Shown one piece after another: positions 18,503-31,599 of a DNA stretch of 64,000 nucleotides. The translations under genes were made by a program, and so were the position numbers. The first letter of the stretch is position 1. Each line of letters opens with the position of its first letter. This DNA is from Tabrizicola aquatica. Its GTDB lineage: Bacteria > Pseudomonadota > Alphaproteobacteria > Rhodobacterales > Rhodobacteraceae. The notes under the pieces are model-generated. The model was given only the letters and a program-made list of their open reading frames with translations, searched no databases and was not told the DNA's origin. The stretch lies in contig NZ_PJON01000001.1 in NCBI RefSeq assembly GCF_002900975.1, forward strand, positions 1,054,001 to 1,118,000. The letters are read 5' to 3'.

Positions 18503-19186
18503 TCAGTCGGCCATCCGAAGCAAGTTATTAACATTACCCACGCCCCACTTCCCCCCTCTCCGCGTCCTGATCCCCCGCTGGGTCAGTTCCGCCGCGATCG
18601 CCCGCAGCGACGTATGCCCCTCCTCCCAGATATCCGCGAGCACGGGCGCGAGGTCCTCCGCGAAGGCCGCAGCGTTGGCCGACACGGCGGCCCTTAGCGC
18701 CGCCCCGCCTTTCCCCGCTCGTCTAAGGCTTTCCGCCCCGTTTGGGTTCCCCAGCTTCACTCCGCGCGCCTTGGCCACTGCAAGGGCCTCCTTCGTCCTC
18801 CGCGAGATCGCCTCGCGCTCGGCCTGAGCCACCAGCGCCATGATCCCGACGGTCAGGTCGTTGGCCTCTGGCATGTCCACGGCCACGAACCGCACGCCAC
18901 TGTCACGCAGGGCCAGAAGGAACGCTGCATTTCGGCTGAGCCGGTCCAGTTTCGCGATCACCAGCGTCGCCCCGGTGACCTTCGCCAGGTGCAGCGCCTT
19001 CGCCAGTTCCGGCCGATCGGCCTTTCGTCCACTTTCGACCTCGGTAAACCGCCCGAGGACCTCGGCACCACGGGAGACGGCGAAGTCCTCGATCACCTTA
19101 CGCTGTGCTTCGAGCCCAAGGCCACTTGCCCCCTGTCTGGCGGTCGAGACCCGCTCGTAAGCCACCAGCCGCTGCCCTGCCGCCAT
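18503..19186 (-). CDS. Small serine recombinase (resolvase/invertase family)
   Basis: A 227-residue site-specific recombinase. The catalytic N-domain begins RLVAYERVSTARQ with nucleophile Ser14, followed by FTEVESGRKADRPEL and the core LVIAKLDRLSRNAAFLLAL. A second conserved block covers AQAEREAISRRTKEAL. The C-terminus (IAAELTQRGIRTRRGGKW) is a helix-turn-helix DNA-binding domain. I start at MAAGQRLV; the longer frame reads through the palindromic site upstream. That site, at 19195-19238, lies 9-52 bp before the start and is the likely res/operator. The gene interrupts what should be the packaging-gene side of the island. Confidence 0.87.
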   Translation of the reverse strand: MAAGQRLVAYERVSTARQGASGLGLEAQRKVIEDFAVSRGAEVLGRFTEVESGRKADRPELAKALHLAKVTGATLVIAKLDRLSRNAAFLLALRDSGVRFVAVDMPEANDLTVGIMALVAQAEREAISRRTKEALAVAKARGVKLGNPNGAESLRRAGKGGAALRAAVSANAAAFAEDLAPVLADIWEEGHTSLRAIAAELTQRGIRTRRGGKWGVGNVNNLLRMAD

Positions 19187-19194
19187 CTCCGCCC

Positions 19195-19238
19195 CCTGTA
19201 CAGAACTGCCTAACGTTCGTTGCGCAGTTCTGTACAGG
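19195..19238. repeat. 15 bp perfect inverted repeat upstream of the resolvase
   Basis: CCTGTACAGAACTGC at 19195-19209 is repeated inverted as GCAGTTCTGTACAGG at 19224-19238, with a 14-base spacer containing AACGTT. Its place directly before the serine resolvase start suggests a recombination (res) subsite that also acts as an autoregulatory operator, or the end of a small resolvase-carrying element. The arms are also internally symmetrical (CTGTACAG). Confidence 0.75.
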
Positions 19239-19274
19239 TCGCTCAGTCGGCGGTGTCTGGCAAGTGCCTGATCT

Positions 19275-19862
19275 TCATAGATTTCCGTCAAGCTCGATCT
19301 TCCGTGCAGTTCCACCGCGTGCCAACGTCCGCTCGGGCGGGTCCAACGGGCTCGGGTCATGTAAAGGGCGCTTCACGCGTTTGCCCTGTTCATCCTGGTA
19401 GACGATCACGTACTCAATCTTGTCGACTGGCTCCCCATGGTCGAACGGCCCCGATACCGCGATCCGCGACCGCGACGCAGGCGTCAAGCCAATCTCCGCC
19501 ATGTAGCGCCCCATCAGCTCCATCTGCCGATTGGCAATTCCGAGCCAGGGCGACTGCTGCACATAGCCGGACGGCGTCTTGAACAGGAGCGGTGTCTCCT
19601 TCAGCTTCTGCTCGGCCTCCACCCATCGCCCGTAGGCTTGGCAATAGGCTGCAAGCACTGCCCGATCGACGATGGTGATGACGCCCATGGCGACCAGCGT
19701 GTCCACCAGCCGGTGCCATTCCGCGCGCGCTTCGTCGCTCAGATGCTCCGGGCAATCGGGAATACCTTCCGGCGGGATGGGCTCGGCCCGGTTCCAAGCC
19801 TTCTTGCCGCGGTTGCCTTCCAACCGCCGCCAGGCGGTGGGTTTGCGGGGCGGACCGCTCAC
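19275..19862 (-). CDS. Phage terminase small subunit, P27 family (copy with C-terminal extension)
   Basis: A 195-residue DNA-recognition subunit of a phage packaging motor. The core (about 30-135) reads CPEHLSDEARAEWHRLVD, then VDRAVLAAYCQAYGRWVEAE and GLTPASRSRIAV, the P27/TerS pattern. It is clearly a paralogue of the gene at 20543-21007 but carries about 60 extra C-terminal residues (with EYVIVYQDEQGKRVKRP). The start is a GTG that overlaps the TGA of the upstream gene as GTGA. A large terminase gene would be expected next; instead the resolvase gene follows after a palindrome, so the packaging module is cut here or was never complete. Confidence 0.82.
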   Translation of the reverse strand: MSGPPRKPTAWRRLEGNRGKKAWNRAEPIPPEGIPDCPEHLSDEARAEWHRLVDTLVAMGVITIVDRAVLAAYCQAYGRWVEAEQKLKETPLLFKTPSGYVQQSPWLGIANRQMELMGRYMAEIGLTPASRSRIAVSGPFDHGEPVDKIEYVIVYQDEQGKRVKRPLHDPSPLDPPERTLARGGTARKIELDGNL

Positions 19863-20086
19863 GGCAGCTGATCCTTCAGCGCGTTGAACACCCGCCGCAC
19901 CGCATAGCCTCGCAGGATCGAGACGGCGGTGAACACTGACGCCACCAGCAGGTTCTCGACAAGGGCAAGGTCGTGTCCCATCGCCGGAAACAGGAGACGC
20001 TGCAGCCACAGGGACAGCAGGAAGCCAACCACCGTTCCGGTCAAAGCCTCGAAAAGGGAGGCGCTACGCGACTGACCAGTGGCCAT
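19859..20086 (-). CDS. Small two-helix phage membrane protein (DUF7220-like)
   Basis: A 75-residue protein with two hydrophobic segments (about 10-30 and 40-60), separated by a short loop with HDLALVENLL and ending RGYAVRRVFNAL. I recognise this as a small phage-encoded membrane family often annotated DUF7220; its function is unknown. The start used (MATGQSRS) lies inside the end of the preceding TerS-like gene, and the stop overlaps the next gene as GTGA. This tight packing supports it being a real part of the phage operon. Confidence 0.65.
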   Translation of the reverse strand: MATGQSRSASLFEALTGTVVGFLLSLWLQRLLFPAMGHDLALVENLLVASVFTAVSILRGYAVRRVFNALKDQLP

Positions 20087-20546
20087 TGGCCTGCTCCTTC
20101 CGGGCTTCGAGAATGGACCTCTTCGCCTCTTCCAGCATCCTCGCATGTGCCAGGAGTACTTCCAGTTCTTCGTCCGATAGATCCGTGAGGTCGATATCTT
20201 CCTCGGGCTGCTGCTTGACCGCGAGGTCCACCCCCTCGCGCCAGCCCCCTTGCGTCTTGAGAAAGAAGATCATTGCAGTCACATTGCCTGCCCGGGCCTT
20301 GGTGACGAGGCTTTGGGCTACCGCGCCCACGGCGCGCGCCTTCCCGCGTTTATAGCGTTCGGATAGGTCTTCGTCGCGGTTCAGAAGTGCGAAGAAGGTG
20401 GTCCGGCCGATACCAAGAAAGTCGGCAATCTGTTCGGCGTTCAGGACAGCGGATAGCGTTTCGACCTCGGCTCGCTGGGCAGCTGTCAGCTGCACGAGCG
20501 GCCGGCCGCCCAATCGCTTCGCCGAGGTATCCTCCAAGGCGCTCAT
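20064..20546 (-). CDS. Terminase-small-subunit-like HTH protein
   Basis: A 160-residue protein whose start overlaps the previous gene as ATGA. Residues 25-60 hold a helix-turn-helix (LNAEQIADFLGIGRTTFF), followed by YKRGKARAVGAVAQSL and GNVTAMIFFLKTQGGW. That block recurs in phage terminase small subunits and related replication-associated DNA-binding proteins, where it leads from DNA binding to oligomerisation. The acidic C-terminus (EEDIDLTDLSDEELEVLL) is also common there. Together with two P27-type proteins it makes three TerS-like genes in one operon. I am fairly sure of the type but not of its exact role. Confidence 0.65.
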   Translation of the reverse strand: MSALEDTSAKRLGGRPLVQLTAAQRAEVETLSAVLNAEQIADFLGIGRTTFFALLNRDEDLSERYKRGKARAVGAVAQSLVTKARAGNVTAMIFFLKTQGGWREGVDLAVKQQPEEDIDLTDLSDEELEVLLAHARMLEEAKRSILEARKEQANGHWSVA

Positions 20547-21007
20547 CCAGTGGCTCCATCCGTCCAAGGGATCTCCCACGGCTTCGGGCCCTGCGGCTTC
20601 ACGCTGAGACGGCTGCGGGATGAAGGCGTCAGGCCGAGTTCCGTCATGTAGCGCAGCATGAATTCGCGCTCACGGTTCGCGATGGTGAGCCACGGCGAAA
20701 GCTGCACGTAGCCTGCAGGCGTCCGAAGGAGCGATGGGCCCTCCGCAAGCTTGCGCTCGGCCTCGACCCAGCGTCCCCAGGACTGGCAGTAGCCCGCCAG
20801 GACGGCACGGTCGACGCGGGTCAGGATGCCGACTGCCTCAAGTTCCTGAACCAGCCGTTTCCACTCCGCCTTGGCCGTGGGATTGAGATGCGCGGGACAA
20901 GTCGGGAGACCGGGAGTCGGCTTCGGTTCCGCGCCGTTGATCGGTCTGCGGCCCGGATTGCCGTCCAGCAACTTCAGATGGGTGGGCTTGGGCTTACGGC
21001 CTCTCAT
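20543..21007 (-). CDS. Phage terminase small subunit, P27 family (short copy)
   Basis: A 154-residue protein starting MRGRKPKPTHLKLLDGNPG, the standard opening of P27-type small terminases, with CPAHLNPTAKAEWKRLV, VDRAVLAGYCQSWGRWVEAE and GLTPSSRSRLSV. It would bind the packaging site of phage DNA and load the large subunit. It resembles the second copy at 19275-19862 along most of its length. Both neighbours overlap it as ATGA, so it sits in a coupled operon with the methyltransferase upstream. No large subunit is present anywhere in the window. Confidence 0.85.
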   Translation of the reverse strand: MRGRKPKPTHLKLLDGNPGRRPINGAEPKPTPGLPTCPAHLNPTAKAEWKRLVQELEAVGILTRVDRAVLAGYCQSWGRWVEAERKLAEGPSLLRTPAGYVQLSPWLTIANREREFMLRYMTELGLTPSSRSRLSVKPQGPKPWEIPWTDGATG

Positions 21008-21249
21008 GTCAGCCTCCGGTCAGGTTCAAGGGGTGCGATCGGACTGCAGAGTTGGTCGACCGAATTTGGCTCTCGCGCCTGTCCAATCGGCGGCCATGCG
21101 TTTGCAAATGCGCGGGAATGTCTGTCCTGGTCCTGGCGATACCCCCTGGGGAATTTCGCGGTTGTGGTAAGCGGAGCCCCATGCCGGTCCCCAGCCCGAA
21201 TGGCCCAGAGATTGACCCTCCCCCCGAGGGTCATTGCTACGCCGCTCAT
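21004..21249 (-). CDS. Small hypothetical phage-operon protein (81 aa)
   Basis: An 81-residue frame whose start overlaps the methyltransferase stop as ATGA and whose stop overlaps the TerS start as ATGA. This double coupling is the main evidence that it is translated. The protein reads MSGVAMTLGGRVNLWAIRAG and later AFANAWPPIGQAREPNSV; no domain is recognised. In related phage operons this position often holds an HNH endonuclease, but the His/Asn signature is absent here. Confidence 0.5.
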   Translation of the reverse strand: MSGVAMTLGGRVNLWAIRAGDRHGAPLTTTAKFPRGYRQDQDRHSRAFANAWPPIGQAREPNSVDQLCSPIAPLEPDRRLT

Positions 21250-22493
21250 GCCGTCACCTCGGCACTGAGCCGTTCCGCCCGCACTGCGGCGAAGCTGCGG
21301 CCATCGCCGTCCAGCACCGCCTCCCTCCCCGTGAAGGCCTGCCAACGCTCAACTGCGACGTCGACGTATGCCGGATCAAGTTCGACCGCATGGCAATGCC
21401 GCCCGCAGCTCTCGGCTGCGATGATCGAGGTCCCCGATCCCGAGAACGGCTCATAGATCGCCTGGCCCGGGCTGGAGTTGTTCAGCATCGGCCGGCGCAT
21501 GCATTCGACCGGCTTCTGCGTGCCATGAACAGTGGCGGCATCCTGGTCGCGGCTGGGGATACTCCACAGCGTGGTCTGCTTGCGATCCCCGGACCAGTGG
21601 CCTGTCGCCTTCTCGCGCACCGCGTACCAGGCCGGTTCGTGCTGCCAGTGGTAGTCCCCGCGGGAGAGGACCAGTCGTTCCTTGGCCCAGATGATCTGGC
21701 TGCGGATGGCAAAGCCGCAGGCAGTGAGGCTCTCGGCCACGGTCGTCGCATGCAGCGCGCCGTGCCAGACGTAGGCCACGTCGCCCGGAAAGAGCGCCCA
21801 GGCCTCGCGCCAATCTGCCCGATGGTCGTTCAGGACCTTGCCGGTGCGCCTGGTCCTGGCTGCCCCCGCCTCGTTGCGCCAGTTCGGGTCGTAAGCGACG
21901 CCATAGGGGGGATCGGTCACCATCAGGTGCGGACGCACGCCGTTCAGCACCCTTGCGACCGTGGCCGCGTCCGTCGCATCGCCGCAGATCAGCCGGTGGG
22001 TGCCGAGCAGCCAGAGGTCGCCGGGCTGAGACACCGGAACCACTGGCACCGGAGGGATGTCGTCTTCCCGCTCGTCCGTCTCGCCTGACCGCAGGAGCGC
22101 GTCCAGCTCCGCAGCGTCGAAGCCCAGGCTGGTCAGATCGACTGCCATGTCCTGCAGGTCGCCAAGCTCCAAAGCGAGGAGCGCCTTGTCCCACCCCGCC
22201 TGCTCCGCCAGCTTGTTGTCCGCCAGGATGTAGGCCCGCTTCTGCGCCTCAGTCAGATGCGCGAGTTCGATCACCGGCACCTTCGCAAGGCCGAGCTTGC
22301 GCGCCGCCATCACCCTGCCGTGGCCCGCGATGACGCCGTTCTCGCCGTCGACCAGCACAGGGCTGGTGAATCCATACTCCCGGATCGATCCTGCGATCAG
22401 CGCAACCTGCGCCTCCGAATGCGTCCGGGCATTCCGGGCATAGGGGATCAGCGCCTCGATCGGGCGGTAGTCGATTGACAGCGTGCCGTCCAT
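21246..22493 (-). CDS. ParB-like/DNA adenine or cytosine-N4 methyltransferase fusion
   Basis: A 415-residue protein with an N-terminal ParB/Srx-like domain (about 1-110; IPYARNARTHSEAQV, GENGVIAGHGRVMAAR) joined to an amino-methyltransferase. Catalytic motif IV is DPPYGVAYD near residue 195. The S-adenosylmethionine motif FSGSGTS comes later in the chain, near 350, followed by ELDPAYVDVAVERW, so the order is that of the beta class. Such fusions are common in alphaproteobacterial prophages, usually as orphan methylases. No matching restriction gene is adjacent. The start at MDGTLSI is preferred to ten codons upstream. It leads the minus-strand packaging operon. Confidence 0.87.
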   Translation of the reverse strand: MDGTLSIDYRPIEALIPYARNARTHSEAQVALIAGSIREYGFTSPVLVDGENGVIAGHGRVMAARKLGLAKVPVIELAHLTEAQKRAYILADNKLAEQAGWDKALLALELGDLQDMAVDLTSLGFDAAELDALLRSGETDEREDDIPPVPVVPVSQPGDLWLLGTHRLICGDATDAATVARVLNGVRPHLMVTDPPYGVAYDPNWRNEAGAARTRRTGKVLNDHRADWREAWALFPGDVAYVWHGALHATTVAESLTACGFAIRSQIIWAKERLVLSRGDYHWQHEPAWYAVREKATGHWSGDRKQTTLWSIPSRDQDAATVHGTQKPVECMRRPMLNNSSPGQAIYEPFSGSGTSIIAAESCGRHCHAVELDPAYVDVAVERWQAFTGREAVLDGDGRSFAAVRAERLSAEVTA

Positions 22494-22572
22494 CCGTGCC
22501 TCCCACCCCCCGGTCCGCAACAAGCGGCGTCTCTGGGGCTCATGCGGGCAGTATAGCAGAAGGCTAAAGCAT

Positions 22573-23139: not shown

Positions 23140-23922
23140 GTGGGCCATACCCATCTTGTTCGGTTACCTGGAACACGCAAATGGCGTGAAGTTGTTGCGC
23201 TTCTGACCCAGGGCGCGGAGGCGGATGAGGTGGTCTCTGCGGCCGCGGTCGCGTCCGAAGGGGACTTGGCGGAAGCGGCCCGAAACCCTGTATTCGTCGA
23301 AGCAATTCGACTGCTCTGCCAAATTCCACTCTCGGCACAGGCCGACAACTTCGCAGCCGCCTTGAGGCTTGGCGGCCTGGATGCCGGCCCGGCGCCCTCA
23401 ATCATCGATGTCGTGGTGGCCGCAACCATGAGACTGGAAGAGGTCCAAGCCAAATCTCGATCGGCTGACGATTTCTCCGAGCTTTCGGCACGAGCTATGG
23501 CGTCTACCTTAGGTGAAGCGTTCACTGCGGCATTGCCCGGTTTGTTAGATCCTAATCCCGAAATCATTCAGACTGGAATCAGGAAGTTTTCCAATCCAGA
23601 AGGCTTTGAGAAGCTGTCGCGTCTCTTCTTCAGAAAGCTGCTGGATGGGACGCTTAGATACTGGCTGGACCGCGTCCTTCCTATTCACACCGGCCCCGAC
23701 AGCCGGTTCCGTTCGTTGGGAGACCGTGGTGCATTCGACGCGGCGATGACCCAGTATGTTTTCGAGTCAACGCGTATCATCAAGGAGTTCTCGCGAGGCT
23801 GGTATGGAAAGGTGATAGCCGGCACGGGAACAGTTCCGGCCGATCGCGTCGCCGCATTTGGCCACGTTGCGTTCAAGAAGATCGGCGAGGAACTTCGCAG
23901 GAAGCGAGACGCAGATGATTGA
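23140..23922 (+). CDS. Unrecognised partner protein of the QueC-like enzyme (260 aa)
   Basis: A 260-residue protein with no membrane segment and a mostly helical look. GTG at 23140 is the first possible start after an in-frame stop at 23116, giving the N-terminus MGHTHLVRLPGTRKWREVV, with glycine directly after the initiator. The C-terminal third (FEKLSRLFFRKLLDGTLRYW, later EFSRGWYG) is the most sequence-rich part. It overlaps the QueC-like gene by 8 bp, so the pair is cotranslated. It does not look like the QatB protein of the Qat defence system as I remember it. No function can be named; its coupling to a QueC-like enzyme suggests it is a substrate or effector. Confidence 0.7.
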   Translation: MGHTHLVRLPGTRKWREVVALLTQGAEADEVVSAAAVASEGDLAEAARNPVFVEAIRLLCQIPLSAQADNFAAALRLGGLDAGPAPSIIDVVVAATMRLEEVQAKSRSADDFSELSARAMASTLGEAFTAALPGLLDPNPEIIQTGIRKFSNPEGFEKLSRLFFRKLLDGTLRYWLDRVLPIHTGPDSRFRSLGDRGAFDAAMTQYVFESTRIIKEFSRGWYGKVIAGTGTVPADRVAAFGHVAFKKIGEELRRKRDADD

Positions 23923-25780
23923 GGCACAAATCACCTGCGTCGCCGATCGTACCGACAAGCGCCTTAACCTGATCTTTGGCGGGTCCAGCCAAACATTCAA
24001 CCTCGCGGCAGGTGATGTGTTTGCCCGCAACCTGATGCCTCTGCCAGAGACCTGTAACGACCTCATGCGGATTGCCTGTGCAGTCTTCCACGCAGACTGT
24101 TCCGTTAGCCGTGGGGGCGACGCTCGATCGGACATGGGGGCGGCCTGGCGCCGGGGTTTTTCAGCAAAGGTCAAGGTCTCAGACCCTCAACTCTGGGCAC
24201 GGCAGGACGTTCGGGAGGCGCTGGTTGACGCTGCCGGGTTTCTAACGGAGGACACTTTCCAGTTCGAGTTTGAGGACCTTCCTCCTGGCAAGCCCACTCA
24301 GCAGTACTTCAACTTCGCCGCGCGCGAAGACGAACGGACGTTCGACGAAGTCATACTCTTCAGTGGGGGTTTGGATAGCTTTGCGGGAGCATTGCAGTCG
24401 CTCGCCACTGGAACCGGAAACGTTGTCCTGCTGACCCATCGCTCCTCACAAAAGGCGATCACACGCCAGACCAAATTGGCTGACTACTTGAAGGAGCGTT
24501 TTCCAAAACGGGTACTTCACGTGCAGATTACCGCCCGAAGGAAGGCAACCGTCGCGACAGAACGAACGCAGCGATCACGATCTCTTCTCTTCACGAGTCT
24601 GGGTTACGCCGTGGCTCGGGCACTGCAGATTTCCACGATCAGCTTTTACGAGAATGGCGTGATCAGTCAGAACCTGCCGATCTCCGGGTCGGTGGTAGGG
24701 ACGTCAGCAACGCGCACGACCCATCCACTTAGCCTCGTTCTTCTTGAACGGCTCCTTGGTGCCCTGGGCGGCAGCAGAATTGCGATACGGAATCCCTTCA
24801 TCTGGAAAACCAAGGCGGAGGTCCTGGAAGTCATCCGAGCCCACGGTGCTGAAGATCAGATCAAGCACACCGTCAGCTGCACGAACCTGCACACCCAAAG
24901 CGCCGAGGTAAGCCACTGTGGTGACTGCACGCAGTGTCTTGACCGAAGATTTGCTGTTTTCGCGACTGGCATGGAGGCGTTCGAGCAGGACGTGCATTAT
25001 TCCACCGATGTGTTCGTTGGCGCACGAGGGAATGGGCGATCAAGGCAGGTCGCGATCGAGTGGACACGCCACGCGCGCCGCATGGCCCAGATGACACCCG
25101 ACAAACTGGCGAATGAGTTCGGCCTACAGATGTCACGCTTGGTCCGCGGGCTTCCTGATCTTCCCAGAGACGAGGCGAGGTCTCGAATAGCAGAATTGCA
25201 GACCAAGCATGGCAAGACGGCTCTCATCGCGATCGAGAATGCGCTCAGGTATCATGCTGGAACGTTGGCAAGGGGCGAAGTGCCGGTTTCAGCCTTGCTT
25301 GCCACGCTCAGCGCTGACGACACAGGAGATACTGCAATCGAACTGAACCCTTCGGTCGAAGCTGGCTTGGAACAAGGCACAGCGGCCTCGATCCATGGTC
25401 CAGCGGTTCGCTTTCCATTGCAGGTACGCTTCTACCAGACCGAAGGACAACGGCGCTCCGTTGATCATCTGGATGTCCAGGACCTCGGCATGGTCAGCGG
25501 AGAACCCGCGTCCGTCGCGCATGCCCTAAAGCCCGTCTTCGATGAGGATCGGAACTTAGGTCGTCCGATTGATGGCTGCCGGTACACGTTGGCGAAGAAC
25601 ATAACGACCACGAAGAAGATGAGTGTCTCGGCGGTTACAAAGAACATTCGGCGATGTCGCGAGGAATTGGCCGAGTTCTATCTTGCGATGGAGGGTATTC
25701 CTCCGGCCGAGCCGCTCCTTATCCAGAGCCACGGTCCGAAAGGCTACCGCCTCGACCCTACGATTCGGGTAATCACGTAG
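23915..25780 (+). CDS. QueC-like PP-loop protein with large extensions (QatC/Cap9-like)
   Basis: A 621-residue protein built around a QueC-type domain, the ATP-dependent enzyme that makes 7-cyano-7-deazaguanine. The PP-loop is SGGLDS at 150-155. The zinc site is Cys322, Cys335, Cys338 and Cys341 in CGDCTQCLDRR, the QueC spacing. Unlike housekeeping QueC (about 230 residues) it has about 140 extra residues before and 270 after. No queC partners (queD, queE, folE) are near, which argues against tRNA queuosine synthesis. Large QueC-like proteins occur in antiphage systems (QatC, type IV CBASS Cap9). The start MIEAQITC overlaps the upstream partner gene by 8 bp. Confidence 0.82.
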   Translation: MIEAQITCVADRTDKRLNLIFGGSSQTFNLAAGDVFARNLMPLPETCNDLMRIACAVFHADCSVSRGGDARSDMGAAWRRGFSAKVKVSDPQLWARQDVREALVDAAGFLTEDTFQFEFEDLPPGKPTQQYFNFAAREDERTFDEVILFSGGLDSFAGALQSLATGTGNVVLLTHRSSQKAITRQTKLADYLKERFPKRVLHVQITARRKATVATERTQRSRSLLFTSLGYAVARALQISTISFYENGVISQNLPISGSVVGTSATRTTHPLSLVLLERLLGALGGSRIAIRNPFIWKTKAEVLEVIRAHGAEDQIKHTVSCTNLHTQSAEVSHCGDCTQCLDRRFAVFATGMEAFEQDVHYSTDVFVGARGNGRSRQVAIEWTRHARRMAQMTPDKLANEFGLQMSRLVRGLPDLPRDEARSRIAELQTKHGKTALIAIENALRYHAGTLARGEVPVSALLATLSADDTGDTAIELNPSVEAGLEQGTAASIHGPAVRFPLQVRFYQTEGQRRSVDHLDVQDLGMVSGEPASVAHALKPVFDEDRNLGRPIDGCRYTLAKNITTTKKMSVSAVTKNIRRCREELAEFYLAMEGIPPAEPLLIQSHGPKGYRLDPTIRVIT

Positions 25781-25989: not shown

Positions 25990-26190
25990 ATGCGCCTTGA
26001 TGAAGATCGGCAGTTTATCGCGGAGGCAGATCTGGCCTTCAGGTACGGCAAGGCCGTCCGCACGCTTCAGCGCTGGCGGGCCAAAGGCTACGGGCCGACC
26101 TTCATGCGGATCGGCGGATCCATCTTCTACCGTCTGGAGGACATCGAGGAGTTCGAGGCCCGTATGCGCCGGGGCGGGGGATCGCAGTGA
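25990..26190 (+). CDS. AlpA/excisionase-like HTH regulator (66 aa)
   Basis: A 66-residue DNA-binding protein with a MerR/AlpA-type winged helix: FIAEADLAFRYGKAVRTLQR forms the helix-turn-helix and IGGSIFYRLEDIEEFE the wing and following helix. Proteins of this type act as excisionases or transcriptional activators in integrative elements such as P4 and related satellites. The ATG at 25990 has GGAG eight bases upstream. The next gene, the primase-helicase, starts on the last base of its stop codon, so they are one operon. The upstream TGTCATGA repeats are a plausible target. Confidence 0.75.
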   Translation: MRLDEDRQFIAEADLAFRYGKAVRTLQRWRAKGYGPTFMRIGGSIFYRLEDIEEFEARMRRGGGSQ

Positions 26191-28493
26191 TGGACGAGCT
26201 TCCCCAGATCGACTTTGACGCCATCAACACCTACTGCGAGGTTCTGTTCGGGTATCTCGACGGCTACGTTCCTCTCCGCCTGATCGGTGAAAAGGGGACG
26301 TCCAACTCCAAGGTGACGCCCGAGTACCTTCGGCCCCATGACATCGCGACGAGAATTGGGAGGATCGCACCGCAGGCCGCGGCAAGGCAGGAAGCCATTT
26401 ATGTCGTGCCGTGCACGGTTGCCCAGCCTAGGCGCGCGAAAGAGGAGGACATCGTCACTACGGGCGTCCTGGTGATCGATATCGACAACGGTGACACTGA
26501 CGCCAAGCGCGATCACCTCATCCGCTATCTCGGGACGCCCACGATGATCGTTGCCTCAGGTGGCATTACCGAAGAAGGGAACACCAAGTTTCACGTGTAC
26601 TGGCGCCTCAGCGAAGCGGCGGAAGGCGCCGACCTGAAACTTGCCGTCCACCTTCGGTCCCTGATGGCCAGCAAGGTCGGGGGAGATGACAGCTTTGACA
26701 ATGTCACCCAGCCGATCCGGGTAGCGGGCACGATCCATGGCAAGCACGGCGTTCTGGCCTCGGTTCGTCTGCTGAGCCACGAGCAAGTCGAATACCACTT
26801 GGCTGATCTGGCCGCCGCCGTTGAAGCGATGCCGCCCATGGCAACGGCGAATGCCAAGCACGACTACAACAACGCGAAGCGGCAGAGCCGGTCAGCAGAG
26901 GAACTGATGACCTCCTTTATCCGTGAGGATGGGAAGGACGGCGAGACCCGCTATTTGACCTTGTCCAAGATCATCGGCCACTGGCTCCGGATGGTCAGGA
27001 GGGGGCGCGCAACGCTCGAAGAAGCCTGGATTGCTGTTCAGCAGCAGAACGCCGCCACGATCCAGCCGCCGTGGCCGGAAGAGCGGCTGCTCCGCGAGTT
27101 CAAAGCGCTCCTTCGCGTCGATTGCGAAAAACACGGCCCGATGCCTGGCCAAGAGGCTGAGGACCAAGAGGATGCGGCGCCTGAGTTTAGTGACGACGCG
27201 CTCGTCCAGTTGTTTGTTCGCGAGTGTGGCCGGGATTGGATCTACGTTGCGGTCTGGGGGCAATGGTACCGCTGGACGGGCAAAGTCTGGAAGCGCGACG
27301 CTGTCGGGGCGGTAGTCCAGGCCGTTCGGCTTGTTTGTCGGACCTCGGCAAGCAAGAACAACAAGCCTGCAGACCAGCGACGCCTAGCCAGTGCGAAGAC
27401 GATCCTGGCGGTCGCAAAGCTTGCTGGTGCCGACCCTTCCATCGCGACTGAAGTCGATCAGCTCGATCAACACGTCATGCTGCTGAACACTCCCGAGGGT
27501 GTTGTCGACCTCGATACTGGCGCGGTTGGTCCGCACGAACGCCGCTTGCTTCTGACGCAGATCACCCGCGCGAGCCCGGGCGGAGAATGCGCAACATGGA
27601 TGAAATTCCTTCAAACCATTACCGGGTGCGATGAAGAGTTGATGGCGTACCTGGCGCGGGTCGCCGGCTATTGCCTGACCGGTCAGACGAAAGAGCAGGC
27701 CTTCTTCCTGCTTCACGGGCTGGGGGCGAACGGCAAGTCGGTCTTCCTGCAGACCCTTGCGTATGTCCTCGGTGACTATGCCGCCACGGCCGCCAGCGAC
27801 ACGTTCGTCAGCCGCGGCGGCACCCGGCATCTGTCAGAAATCGCCGGGCTACGGGGGGCGCGTCTGGTGCTGATGTCTGAAACCGAAGCTGACGCGCAAT
27901 GGGCGGAAGCGCGGATCAAGATGGTGACCGGCGGTGAAACACTCCGCGCAAACTTCATGTACAAGGACCACTTCGAATTCACCCCGCAGTTCAAGCTCCT
28001 GGTCGGAACGAACCACCGCCCTGCGCTCGGCGAGGTCGGCGAGGCGATGCGGCGGCGCCTCCACCTCATCCCCTTCAATGTGACCATCCCGGAAGATCAG
28101 CGCGACCCGGGCCTGGCGGATAAGCTCAAGCTGGAAGCCAACGGCATCCTTGGGTGGATGCTGGCAGGCTGCAACGATCTGCAACGGCTCGGCGGGTTGT
28201 GCCCTCCGACTTGTGTCAGCTCGGCGGTGGAGGAGTACTTCTCCACCGAGGATCGCTTCGGACAGTGGATTGAAGTGGGCTGCGACGTTGGGGCGGCTCG
28301 CAGGGCGACGTCTAGGGCCCTGTTCGCATCCTGGTCGAGCTGGGCGCAGGACGCCGGGATTGATCCGAAGTCTATCCGGTATCTCGGGGAGCAACTCCGC
28401 TCCCGCGGCTTCGGTGATGGGAAGGTCGGTCGCGATCGAGGCTGGCACGGCATCGGGCTTCGCTCCGCCCGCCGACCGGAGGATAGCGAATGA
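26190..28493 (+). CDS. P4/D5-type primase-helicase
   Basis: A 767-residue replication protein of the phage/plasmid primase group. The N-terminal third (GVLVIDIDNGDTDAKRDHLI, later RVAGTIHGKHG) looks like an archaeo-eukaryotic-type primase domain. The C-terminal half is a superfamily 3 helicase with Walker A GLGANGKS at about 510-517, Walker B region RLVLMSET, and motif C ending in VGTNHRP. The D5_N-type linker lies between them (VDLDTGAVGPHERRLL). Such proteins start replication of P4-like satellites and many prophages. The ATG shares a base with the stop of the HTH gene upstream, and the next small gene overlaps as ATGA. Confidence 0.87.
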   Translation: MDELPQIDFDAINTYCEVLFGYLDGYVPLRLIGEKGTSNSKVTPEYLRPHDIATRIGRIAPQAAARQEAIYVVPCTVAQPRRAKEEDIVTTGVLVIDIDNGDTDAKRDHLIRYLGTPTMIVASGGITEEGNTKFHVYWRLSEAAEGADLKLAVHLRSLMASKVGGDDSFDNVTQPIRVAGTIHGKHGVLASVRLLSHEQVEYHLADLAAAVEAMPPMATANAKHDYNNAKRQSRSAEELMTSFIREDGKDGETRYLTLSKIIGHWLRMVRRGRATLEEAWIAVQQQNAATIQPPWPEERLLREFKALLRVDCEKHGPMPGQEAEDQEDAAPEFSDDALVQLFVRECGRDWIYVAVWGQWYRWTGKVWKRDAVGAVVQAVRLVCRTSASKNNKPADQRRLASAKTILAVAKLAGADPSIATEVDQLDQHVMLLNTPEGVVDLDTGAVGPHERRLLLTQITRASPGGECATWMKFLQTITGCDEELMAYLARVAGYCLTGQTKEQAFFLLHGLGANGKSVFLQTLAYVLGDYAATAASDTFVSRGGTRHLSEIAGLRGARLVLMSETEADAQWAEARIKMVTGGETLRANFMYKDHFEFTPQFKLLVGTNHRPALGEVGEAMRRRLHLIPFNVTIPEDQRDPGLADKLKLEANGILGWMLAGCNDLQRLGGLCPPTCVSSAVEEYFSTEDRFGQWIEVGCDVGAARRATSRALFASWSSWAQDAGIDPKSIRYLGEQLRSRGFGDGKVGRDRGWHGIGLRSARRPEDSE

Positions 28494-28680: not shown

Positions 28681-28684
<4 letters not shown>
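28490..28684 (+). CDS. Small conserved island protein (64 aa)
   Basis: A 64-residue basic protein starting MNPLSPFHMTPTERRAELC and containing RLLQRQSTELSHRPGESSL. I have the impression of having seen this pattern next to DUF2924 and recombinase genes in alphaproteobacterial mobile elements, but I cannot name a function. Both ends overlap the neighbouring genes as ATGA, which is good evidence of translation. The first half is a likely helix and the C-terminus looks disordered. Confidence 0.6.
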
Positions 28685-29132
<448 letters not shown>

Positions 29133-29136
<4 letters not shown>

Positions 29137-30449
29137 ACGCGCAGAGCAAGCCTGTCGTCCGCAAGCTCCGCTGCGCCGTCTACACCCGGAAATCCTCCGA
29201 GGAAGGGCTGGAGCAGGAGTTCAACAGCCTGCATGCCCAGCGCGAAGCGTGCGAGGCGTTCGTCGCCAGCCAGCGGTCAGAGGGCTGGGTGCTGGTCCGC
29301 GATCAGTATGACGACGGCGGCATTTCGGGCGGCACGCTGGAACGTCCCGGCCTGAAGCGGTTGATGGCAGATATCGAGGACGGGCTGGTCGATGTCGTCG
29401 TGGTCTACAAGATCGACCGCCTCAGCCGCTCGCTGGCGGATTTCGCAAAGCTGGTGGAGGTGTTCGACCGGAACGGCGTGACCTTCGTCTCAGTCACGCA
29501 GTCGTTCAACACGACCACCTCTATGGGGCGGTTGACGCTAAACGTTCTCCTGTCCTTCGCCCAGTTCGAGCGCGAGGTCACTGCCGAGCGCATTCGCGAC
29601 AAGGTCGCCGCCAGCCGCAAGAAGGGCATGTGGATGGGTGGCGTACCGCCCTACGGCTACCGGGTGGAAAACCGGAAGTTGCTGGTTGATGAGGACGCCG
29701 CCGCGCATGTGCGCTGGGTCTTCGCCCGCTTCATCGAGATCGGTTCCGGCACACTGTTGGCGCGCGAGCTAGCCGAGCGGGATGTGACCACCAGCCGGGG
29801 CCACCGCATCGACAAGAAGTTCGTCTATCGGATGCTGAACAACCGGGTTTACATTGGCGAGGCTGTTCACAAGGGAACCAGCTATCCTGGCGAGCACGCG
29901 GCGATCATCGATCGCGATGTCTGGGACAAAGTCCATCTGATGCTGACGGTGAGCCCTCGTGCAAGGGGAGCAAGCACGACGGCGCAGACGCCTGCACTGC
30001 TTAAAGGCCTGATCTTCGGCCCAGACGGCGCAGCTTTCTCCCCGACACACACTCGCAAACACGGGAGACTGTACCGCTACTACGTTAGCCAGAGTATCTT
30101 GAAGTTCGGTAAACGCGCCTGCCCAATCGGGCGGGTGTCAGCCGGGGAGATCGAGGCGGCCGTCATTGACCAGCTCCGCTTGGTCTTCCGGCAGCCGGAG
30201 ATCATCGCCGGAACGTGGAAGGCCGCCAGCGCGCTTTCCGCAGACATCAGCGAGGCGGACGCCCGAACAGCCCTTAAGCAGCTTGATCCCATGTGGGACG
30301 AACTCTTCCCGGCAGAACAGGCGCGTATCGTGGCGCTGCTCCTGGAACGGGTCGACATTGGCGTGGATGGGCTGAACGTTCGGCTGCGCCTGGATGGCCT
30401 GACGGGGCTTGCAAGCGAACTGCTCACAAAGGTGGGAGAAGCGGCATGA
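29133..30449 (+). CDS. Large serine recombinase (integrase of the island)
   Basis: A 438-residue integrase. The catalytic domain has AVYTRKSSEEGLEQEFNSL with the nucleophile Ser in TRKSS, DDGGISGGTLERPGL and VVYKIDRLSRSL. The recombinase domain follows (GGVPPYGYRVENRKL, NNRVYIGEAVHKG). A zinc-ribbon-like region around LKGLIFGPDGAAFSP has lost most cysteines, leaving only ACPIGR. The last 77 residues (LDPMWDELFPAEQARIV, VDIGVDGLNVRLR) are repeated downstream in a chimeric gene. It starts by ATGA overlap with DUF2924. It is the best candidate for the enzyme that inserted this island. Confidence 0.88.
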
Positions 30450-31500
30450 ACGTGCGCAAACTTCATCAAGTCCTAACCTTTGGTGGCCTAAATCAACCTC
30501 GGCACGCTATGCCCAATAAACTCATCAACTTGAAACCGAAACCGAACTCATCCTCCCCGCGGTATCCGCGCAAAAAACACCACAGAAGGAACAGGCAGGA
30601 AGCAGAAAAACACCGGGGGGCAGGAATGAGCTGCAGTGCCACCCGCGGCGGGCAATCGGACACCGTTACCATCCATATCCCCTTCTCCATCGTGAAACGC
30701 GGCGGGCGGAAGGAGATGCAGATGCCCGACCATGTCCGACCAGAGCGCACGCCGGACAGCACGCTGGTCAAGGCGCTGGCCCGCGCGTTCCGCTGGAAGC
30801 GGATGCTCGAGTCGGGTGAGTTCGCCACCATCGCCGAACTGGCCGAGCGAGAGGGGATCGCTGCACCATACCTCACGAGGACGATGCGCTTGTCGCATCT
30901 GTCCCCAGACCTGGTTGAGTCGATCCTCGAAGGACGTCAGCCGCGTCACCTGACGCTGGAAGTCCTATGGAAGGCGGCCCAAGTGAAAGATGCAGGGATC
31001 AACGAGGCAGAGACCTGCGCAGCCCTGGCCCGGCTTGACCCGCTATGGGACGAACTGTTCCCCGCCGAGCAGGCGCGCATCGTGACGATGCTGGTCGAGG
31101 GGGTGGATATCGGCAAGGACAGCTTGAACATTCGCCTCCGCGTCGATGGTCTTGGTGGCCTCGCGCGAGAGATGTTCGCTGGAGAAATGGGGGCAGCCGC
31201 ATGAAACGCGGGACGCCGATCCCCGAAACCATGACGCTCCACGTTCCGTTTCGCATCGTGAAGCGCGGCGGGCGCAAGGAAATGCAAATGCCTGAAGGCA
31301 GCGCCCAGCAGCGCAAGACCGACAACTCGTTGGTCAAAGCAGTGGCCCGCGCCTTCCGCTGGAAGAGGATGTTGGAGTCGGGCGAGTTCGCCACCGTCGC
31401 CGAACTGGCCGAACGTGAGGAGATCGCACCCTCGTACATGACCCGCATCTTACGCGTCACGCTGCTAGCACCTAATATCGTCGAGGCGATCCTGGATGGG
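30216..31500 (+). repeat. Diverged tandem duplication: recombinase tail plus HTH gene
   Basis: Unit A covers the recombinase 3' end (30216-30449) and the following HTH region (about 30660-30960). Unit B covers a second recombinase tail (30968-31204) and a second HTH gene (31215-31500). The tails share DELFPAEQARIV and the HTH parts share IVKRGGRKEMQMP and AFRWKRMLESGEFAT. The units differ at many positions and in spacing, so they look like the junction of two related elements rather than a recent copy. Confidence 0.75.
30626..31204 (+). CDS. Chimeric HTH protein fused to a serine-recombinase tail
   Basis: A 192-residue frame. The first 110 residues are the small HTH protein that normally follows such recombinases (IVKRGGRKEMQMP, AFRWKRMLESGEFATIAELA). 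At LEVLWKAAQVKDAG the sequence changes, without a frame break, into a copy of the recombinase C-terminus (LDPLWDELFPAEQARIVTML, NIRLRVDGL). The catalytic and recombinase domains are absent. The ATG at 30626 is preceded by GGGGGGCAGG; an upstream in-frame ATG at 30446 overlaps the recombinase stop and would add 60 residues. Probably formed by recombination between two related elements; whether it is functional is unknown. Confidence 0.7.
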   Translation: MSCSATRGGQSDTVTIHIPFSIVKRGGRKEMQMPDHVRPERTPDSTLVKALARAFRWKRMLESGEFATIAELAEREGIAAPYLTRTMRLSHLSPDLVESILEGRQPRHLTLEVLWKAAQVKDAGINEAETCAALARLDPLWDELFPAEQARIVTMLVEGVDIGKDSLNIRLRVDGLGGLAREMFAGEMGAAA

Positions 31501-31599
31501 AGTCAGGGCCCGGGGGTGACGCTGGCCCCGGTGCTTGAGCCGTTTCCGGTAGAGTGGGACGAGCAGCGCCGCCGATTCTCGACTCGCGCCATTGCGTGA
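31201..31599 (+). CDS. Small HTH protein following the recombinase (132 aa)
   Basis: The complete version of the HTH family seen truncated in the gene upstream. It has MTLHVPFRIVKRGGRKEM, AFRWKRMLESGEFATVAELA and a recognition-helix region EREEIAPSYMTRILRVTLL, followed by APNIVEAILDGSQ and FPVEWDEQRRRF. These proteins occur directly after large serine recombinases in alphaproteobacteria and may be directionality or regulatory factors. The start overlaps the chimeric gene as ATGA. A gap of 120 bp separates it from the defence cluster. Confidence 0.7.
   Translation: MKRGTPIPETMTLHVPFRIVKRGGRKEMQMPEGSAQQRKTDNSLVKAVARAFRWKRMLESGEFATVAELAEREEIAPSYMTRILRVTLLAPNIVEAILDGSQGPGVTLAPVLEPFPVEWDEQRRRFSTRAIA

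Follow-up and report, generated by a model that had tools for sequence, protein, structure and literature searches.

A conserved overlapping gene pair in a phage-derived island of Tabrizicola aquatica: a QatC-like enzyme with a Met-Gly partner as a putative two-gene relative of QatB-QatC

The window analysed here, a 64,000-nucleotide stretch of the Tabrizicola aquatica genome (contig NZ_PJON01000001.1, positions 1,054,001 to 1,118,000 of the forward strand), carries two overlapping genes, which we call A and B. Judged from sequence comparisons, A and B are a conserved overlapping pair, kept as one unit across very different bacteria. We read the pair as a natural two-gene relative of QatB-QatC that travels as cargo of a mobile island: the QatC-like enzyme B would modify Gly2 of its partner A, the C-terminal domain of B would couple the complex to DNA, and the outcome would be defence. 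We put the probability of this reading at roughly 0.6. The pair has the following features:

23140..23922, plus strand: gene A, GTG start, stop included; 260-residue, all-alpha partner protein
23140..23184, plus strand: N-terminal motif of A, MGHTHLVRLPGTRKW, family consensus MGHxRLGxLPxTRKW; putative acceptor tail with Gly2 as putative modification site
23915..25780, plus strand: gene B, ATG start, stop included; 621-residue QatC-like enzyme with an extra C-terminal domain
23915..23922, plus strand: 8-bp overlap between the stop of A and the start of B, ATGATTGA
24362..24379, plus strand: PP-loop SGGLDS of B, residues 150-155, ATP pyrophosphate binding (S150, G151, G152, D154 and S155 each in 71/71 relatives)
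24707..24727, plus strand: ATRTTHP of B, residues 265-271, QatC-type substrate-site threonines replacing the Tyr/Asp of QueC and Cap9
24878..24937, plus strand: zinc-site cysteines of B, C322...C335-G-x-C338-xx-C341, residues 322-341 (each in 71/71 relatives)
25034..25321, plus strand: helical C-terminal extension of B like that of QatC, residues 374-469 (helices in the model; Foldseek alignment to QatC)
25406..25780, plus strand: extra C-terminal domain of B, residues 498-621, predicted OmpR/PhoB-type winged helix (topology strands-HHH-hairpin in the model)

The two open reading frames (ORFs) and their 8-bp overlap, as named in the original prediction, were both confirmed. The overlap makes translational coupling of A and B likely; in relatives the overlaps are mostly 4, 8, 11 or 14 bp. 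The GTG start of A is supported, because alignments of homologues open at residue 1 and their start codons vary (ATG, GTG or TTG) around a constant Gly2. Both genes look to be under purifying selection, since synonymous change exceeds non-synonymous change when the window is compared with two relatives per gene (0.71-0.81 vs. 0.23-0.42 per site, uncorrected, for both genes).

The original prediction asked whether A stands beside QueC-like genes elsewhere, and it does. A genome search with B as the only query yielded 420 stretches, 399 of them confirmed; among the best 80, which were kept, A lies directly upstream of B in 78, a few of the A copies being frame-shifted or cut, and the two B loci without A (L122 and L124; loci are denoted by L, genomes by G) are both interrupted by the contig start. 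As this search selects for two enzyme motifs and for the best 80 of 399, it under-samples remoter relatives. Viral contigs were searched with A, and a B-type ORF was found directly downstream of A in 80 of the best 80 loci (94 confirmed); in L073 this ORF runs off the contig end, and in L088 it is short. The pattern used in this search, MGHx[RH]L[GV]xLP, makes the starts of these A proteins conserved by construction, and they were not counted as evidence. A third search, of 195 relatives with A, gave matches in 11 genomes including the window's own, in two of which A is truncated: the B fragment of G001 is encoded on the other strand, and the 4.4-kb contig of G095 shows no B. The three sets of loci are partly redundant. 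No fusion of A and B in a single ORF occurs among the ORFs of L001-L182.

The pair-bearing records of the B-only search, many of them metagenome-assembled, come from Pseudomonadota, Planctomycetota, Acidobacteria, Myxococcales, Cyanobacteria, Bacteroidales, Omnitrophica, Krumholzibacteriia and one Deltaproteobacterium, and the pair is also present on a Leptospira noguchii plasmid. Copies with an interrupted B or a truncated A were seen in L269 (G009), L293 (G066), L270 (G001), L271 (G095), L132, L154 and L155, as expected for cargo that comes and goes.

Its conserved residues identify B as a QatC-like ATP-pyrophosphatase; the active site is intact, and a C-terminal domain has been added. It matches the PADLOC model of QatC at 2.1e-57 and the Pfam QueC family at 3.4e-9; its score against the NCBIfam QatC equivalog model (NF041925) is 207.4 bits, under the curated cut-off of 280. 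The motif set published for QatC (cluster 2 of PF06508; PubMed Central, PMC, article PMC13329287) comprises SGGxDS, RxRxxxF/Y, ExG, HP, P(x)4TK, a conserved Tyr and the zinc site CGxC..RR, and the B protein of the window carries every residue of it. Among 71 aligned B proteins, to which all counts of conservation in B refer, the SGG, D and S of the PP-loop, R220, R222, F/Y226, E246, G248, H270, T299, K300, Y362, C335, G336, C338, C341 and R344 are found in all 71, P271 and R345 in 70, and P294 in 57. The SGGLDS loop and the four zinc cysteines, which had been recognised in the original prediction, thus proved invariant (71/71). The exact spacings published for QatC, D(x)4R(x)7WxR, DxW/YxxxF and C(x)19CG (PMC13329287), are not all kept: R66-W78 of B corresponds to R(x)11W and C322-C335 to C(x)12C. 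Position 115 is occupied by Phe in the window; 54/71 proteins have Tyr, Phe or Trp there (37 Tyr, 15 Phe), with D113 present in 65/71 and F119 in 71/71.

The substrate site is also of the QatC type. According to PMC13279940, a TxT pair in QatC replaces the donor-binding Tyr/Asp of QueC and Cap9 and is needed for defence. The Tyr/Asp site is absent from B, which has TRTTHP at this place; T266 is conserved in 61/71 (Ser in the other 10), T268 in 70/71, and T269, like H270, in 71/71. Matching by motif, we equate T266 and T268 of B with T278 and T280 of QatC.

The structural model of B (mean predicted local distance difference test score, pLDDT, 88.9) finds the QatC chains first in a Foldseek search (9y01_B, 3.5e-16; 9y02_B, 4.3e-16), followed by QueC (2pg3, 3bl5) and Cap9 (9nto). 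The match to the 428-residue QatC chain of 9y01_B spans 426 columns with gaps counted and ranks above those to QueC and Cap9, so B is predicted to have QatC-like extensions besides the QueC core, which agrees with the earlier observation of sequence flanking this core on both sides. In QatC the helical C-terminal extension is the part that binds QatB. In a tree of 62 cores the 33 B-type rows and 14 QatC rows (47) share a branch apart from the 15 housekeeping QueC rows (100/100). The concern that B might cluster with housekeeping tRNA enzymes is answered by this grouping with QatC, and the tree and the NCBIfam result rule out B as a housekeeping QueC.

The partner protein A is predicted to be a compact helical protein: in its AlphaFold model (mean pLDDT 92.2) the first helix begins at residue 13 and residues 1-5 score below 50. 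It had been described as unrecognised, and it has no match among the PADLOC and NCBIfam models at E values up to 1; its single Pfam match lies far below the cut-off of that model. The most conserved feature is the extreme N-terminus. The 80 loci found via B were gathered without selecting on A in the search, and 76 of them show the start of A (all but L122, L124, L133 and L149); Gly2 is present in 76/76 and His3 in 75/76, the exception being L166 with MGQ. MGH/MGQ sequences had served to build the profile that placed these starts. Read from the codon, residue 1 of the 76 is M in 67, L in 5 and V in 4. In an alignment of 79 partners, whose rows were pre-chosen with the start pattern, the invariant columns are M1, G2, D111 and K247. 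The Met-Gly start, which the original prediction had likened to that of QatB, therefore holds as far as Gly2 is concerned, whereas the likeness ends at the next residues, MGH in A and MGTS in QatB.

These features suggest how the pair may work. A and B would form a complex; Met1 of A would be removed, and the free amine of Gly2, or the Gly-His tail, would enter the PP-loop pocket of B. B would activate a carboxylate with ATP and join it to Gly2 of A, or otherwise modify the Gly2 amine. The step is modelled on the action of Cap9 on CdnD and on the proposed action of QatC on QatB. In PMC13279940, Gly2 of QatB is essential, Met is removed ahead of Gly, and QatB and QatC alone protect against phage lambda vir; the QatC reaction is left open there and was not reconstituted in vitro. 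We infer the complex, the modification and defence from QatBC and Cap9. Of the earlier proposal, a minimal defence pair in which the QueC-like enzyme acts on its partner, the pairing, the grouping with QatC and the conserved Gly2 have been borne out; activity and modification keep their inferred status.

It is conceivable that A serves only as scaffold or activator, that the substrate of B is to be sought elsewhere (DNA, RNA, a small molecule or a phage protein), and that the Met-Gly-His tail is a regulatory plug of the pocket. This would fit with the failure to reconstitute QatC activity in vitro (PMC13279940), and with a pocket that holds the threonines of QatC and not the Tyr/Asp that bind the known donor. 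The near-total conservation of Gly2-His3 at the very N-terminus of A and the precedents of CdnD and QatB (PMC13279940) argue the other way, and we regard the scaffold role as unlikely.

B extends about 150 residues beyond QatC. Tails of several types occur among 147 B proteins, redundant copies included: 82 are of the window's type, 52 of a second and 4 of a third type, and 9 are single or paired. A profile of the window-type tail, built from 50 relatives, had its best match in the Protein Data Bank (PDB) with a TcpP chain (E 0.0053), followed by sigma factors, all of these matches being weak; taken with the model topology, they support a DNA-binding winged helix to a moderate degree. When 10 proteins were scanned, the DpnII-MboI family (PF18742) was above its cut-off in L157, L171, L176 and L188; L157, L171 and L176 belong to the third tail type, and the Leptospira protein is among those above the cut-off. 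In the same scan L077, which has a tail of a single type, exceeded the cut-off of PF00486 (Trans_reg_C). The C-terminal domain thus varies between relatives, winged-helix-like in the window and DpnII/MboI nuclease-like in some others. The extra domains noted on B earlier are indeed present, and the C-terminal one can now be described as of a DNA-binding type, nuclease-like in some relatives. A further homologue of B, in L167:5944-8709, has 922 residues, about 440 of which lie in a C-terminal part with no Pfam match at E 0.05.

In the reading that we prefer, this domain would link the modified complex to DNA as a sensor or effector and would take the place of QatA and QatD: it would direct the complex to DNA or cut the DNA, and the outcome would be defence against phages or other mobile DNA. 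The nuclease-type domain of some members, and the occurrence of the two overlapping genes on mobile elements, could also point to a toxin-antitoxin-like pair, with one toxic protein and a second that neutralises it, either by modifying or by binding it. B is not a typical antitoxin, being a large enzyme in which the QatC active site is kept, and according to PMC13279940 both QatB and QatC are required for defence; we consider a toxin-antitoxin pair quite improbable.

The pair had been placed in a mobile island, and the flanking genes agree with this. They are:

18503..19360, minus strand: resolvase/serine recombinase (PF00239, 9.6e-27)
19275..20009 and 20543..21007, minus strand: two phage small-terminase (Terminase_4) genes (PF05119, 7.9e-26 and 9.6e-27)
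21246..22523, minus strand: N6/N4 DNA methylase with a ParB-like N-terminus (PF01555, 2e-15; ParB_N sub-cut-off)
26187..28493, plus strand: D5-type primase/helicase (PF08706, 4.7e-25)
28681..29136, plus strand: DUF2924 gene (PF11149, 2.8e-52)
28977..30449, plus strand: ORF of a large serine recombinase (PF00239, 4.4e-39, with PF07508)

Family matches thus confirm that the flanks of the pair in the window are those of a phage-derived, serine-recombinase island. Around the pair in 160 related loci, which are partly redundant, serine recombinases were found at 76, D5 primases at 34, DUF2924 at 34 and DNA methylases at 21; these family names are our reading of example sequences and are consistent with the Pfam matches. 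When the D5-primase flank was compared for exchange of cargo, the nearest primase copy among genomes with no match to A was that of G011, at a contig end, and the next was that of G075.

Given such surroundings, B might modify A in order to regulate or stabilise the mobile element itself, for instance as a winged-helix switch of excision or prophage genes. The winged-helix-like C-terminal domain of the window, the position of its pair inside a phage-derived island and the recurrence of serine recombinases and D5 primases would suit such a role. The occurrence of the pair in many phyla and on a Leptospira plasmid, the nuclease-type domain of other members and the many defence-model families matched by the neighbours all speak against it. 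We hold element regulation to be the least unlikely of the alternatives, and still favour defence.

Some further observations concern the island. The two small-terminase genes on the minus strand (19275-20009 and 20543-21007) are separate and lie close together. The C-terminal recombinase segment LDPxWDELFPAEQARIV of ORF 28977-30449 is repeated in ORF 30293-31204, and the short motif IVKRGGRKEMQMP is common to ORFs 30293-31204 and 31045-31599; by sequence, both repeats in 28977-31599 are local duplications. Five viral contigs (L051, L060, L065, L068 and L100) stop at the stop codon of B, and the module seems to lie there at predicted provirus edges.

The absence of a QatA ATPase and a QatD nuclease, part of the original prediction, was borne out by a search for homologues of QatA (a KAP ATPase), QatB and QatD (a TatD nuclease) in the ORFs of 182 loci, which gave 0 matches at 1e-5 (6/6 positive-control loci matched); the flanks covered reached up to about 6-8 kb, and 1.5 kb in L012-L022. 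A complete Qat system with QatA and QatD farther off was therefore not found inside the flanks examined.

The donor of the modification deserves separate consideration. The donor in type IV CBASS (cyclic oligonucleotide-based antiphage signalling system) is 7-carboxy-7-deazaguanine (CDG), and deazaguanylation has been proposed for QatC (PMC13329287). In the window's genome, which is 99.97 percent complete, there is no QueC over the curated cut-off (best score 23.7 bits vs. 150.3) and no PTPS/QueD match; the earlier remark that queuosine-pathway genes are missing nearby fits with these genome-wide negatives. QueE was represented by one narrow model, which matched only weakly even in G547, where the gene lies beside queC and queD. 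Eight searched genomes have both A and B open (G000, G004, G034, G035, G036, G048, G511 and G547); QueC exceeds the cut-off only in G547, and QueD is found in G035, G048 and G547, so that 5/8, the window's included, are without detectable QueC and QueD and 7/8 without QueC. Left out of this count were G001 and G095 (A truncated), G009 and G066 (B interrupted) and G038 (B cut by the contig end), five genomes in which QueC and QueD were likewise both undetected. CDG synthesis requires QueD and QueE (PMC13329287), so that CDG should be missing from a host without QueD, and some hosts of the pair seem unable to make this presumed cap molecule. Because QueC and QueD are undetectable in the window's genome, CDG is an improbable donor, and a donor other than CDG is probably used by this pair. 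For asking what QatC attaches to QatB, the pair offers a compact system of two proteins, found in nature, with a QatC-type active site and a short tail, and its hosts without detectable QueC and QueD make this question accessible to a test.

The neighbourhood of the pair was compared with that of housekeeping queC in 18 genomes that hold both. Around the pair 147 ORFs (48,334 residues) matched 86 PADLOC families at 1e-10, and around queC 138 ORFs (44,991 residues) in 13 of the same 18 genomes matched 10, in a comparison that counts families and not the proteins matched. The family counts are redundant; among the neighbour families listed, 25 of the 86, are type IV restriction enzymes, a DRT reverse transcriptase, PD-T7-1 and Fic-type proteins.

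Several points weigh against the reading of the pair as a QatBC-like defence system with a donor other than CDG, and the counting by families just mentioned is one of them. At least 13 of the 25 neighbour families listed are DNA-methylase models and may be island genes, and SoFic, PDC-S04 and PDC-S24 are found around queC too. The 33 B-type rows form one group in the tree with a support of 91/100, which is short of 95 and was not starred, and the QatC rows are not one group in the best tree. For A, a Foldseek search of the model against a PDB copy that included 9y01 and 9y02 gave nothing at E 0.001 or better, and comparison with a profile of 14 QatB sequences gave an hhalign probability of 12.8 percent. 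For these two reasons we call A a positional analogue of QatB, sequence homology not being demonstrable; the NCBIfam QatB model matches 3/79 A proteins with a best E of 0.02, and with results as weak as these A is not claimed to be a QatB homologue. According to PMC13279940, QatBC alone is not effective against all phages stopped by full qatABCD, and QatA and QatD are required against some phages. Finally, QueC is present in 29/50 other pair-bearing genomes, a set that was chosen for diversity, has at least 2 genomes in common with the first set and was searched for QueC only. The case against CDG therefore concerns a general requirement only, and it presupposes that pairs in genomes lacking QueC and QueD are active.

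A broader picture, which we put forward tentatively and hold to be somewhat less probable than its opposite, is that the pair represents a widespread stand-alone branch of QueC-derived immunity, with N-terminal Gly-His capping of the helical partner by the QatC-like enzyme, a donor other than CDG and, as part of the enzyme, a plug-in C-terminal output domain directed at DNA (winged helix, DpnII/MboI-type nuclease or other). If this were true, then together with QatB (MGTS), CdnD (MGGS) and the MSDGP type described below, modification of an N-terminal tail would amount to a general logic of immunity in which the partners can be exchanged. The differing C-terminal domains suggest a route from QueC-type modification to action on DNA.

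It is useful to compare the pair with what is known. Immune modification by the QueC family is known; searches of the open PMC literature showed no description of the partner family, of the natural two-gene form, of the differing C-terminal domains or of the MGH pair as such. According to PMC13329287, qatA adjoins just 34 percent of the genes in cluster 2, and the A/B family may therefore have members in this cluster. With QueC, B shares the PP-loop SGGxDS and the four zinc cysteines, but B is on a separate branch (100/100) and has motifs of the QatC type, and the window's genome has no detectable queC or queD. The Cap9-CdnD pair of type IV CBASS (PMC11996544 and PMC13279940) likewise combines an enzyme of the QueC fold with a protein substrate bearing glycine at its N-terminus; A, however, cannot be recognised as a CD-NTase, B has the threonines of QatC where Cap9 has its donor-binding Tyr/Asp, and Cap9 is without the extensions. 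A third QatC-like locus type was found in L244, L245 and L246 (genomes G342, G381 and G531). It resembles the pair in its small upstream partner with a motif at or near the start, followed by a QatC-like enzyme of about 460 residues, and differs in that the partner has about 190 residues and an MSDGP motif, and the PP-loop of the enzyme reads SEG/SDG..DSR. In these loci the enzyme gene is followed by a helix-turn-helix-type gene with what we take to be an ImmA/IrrE-type peptidase part. The QatB-QatC core (9y01, 9y02) is set apart by several features: no QatA or QatD lies in the flanks of A/B, A begins with MGH where QatB has MGTS and lacks the disordered tail of 30-90 residues seen in QatB, and B has about 150 extra C-terminal residues with a domain that varies between relatives. 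What the pair has in common with this core is a helical Met-Gly partner directly upstream of, and overlapping, a QatC enzyme, and in B the active-site residues and extensions of QatC.

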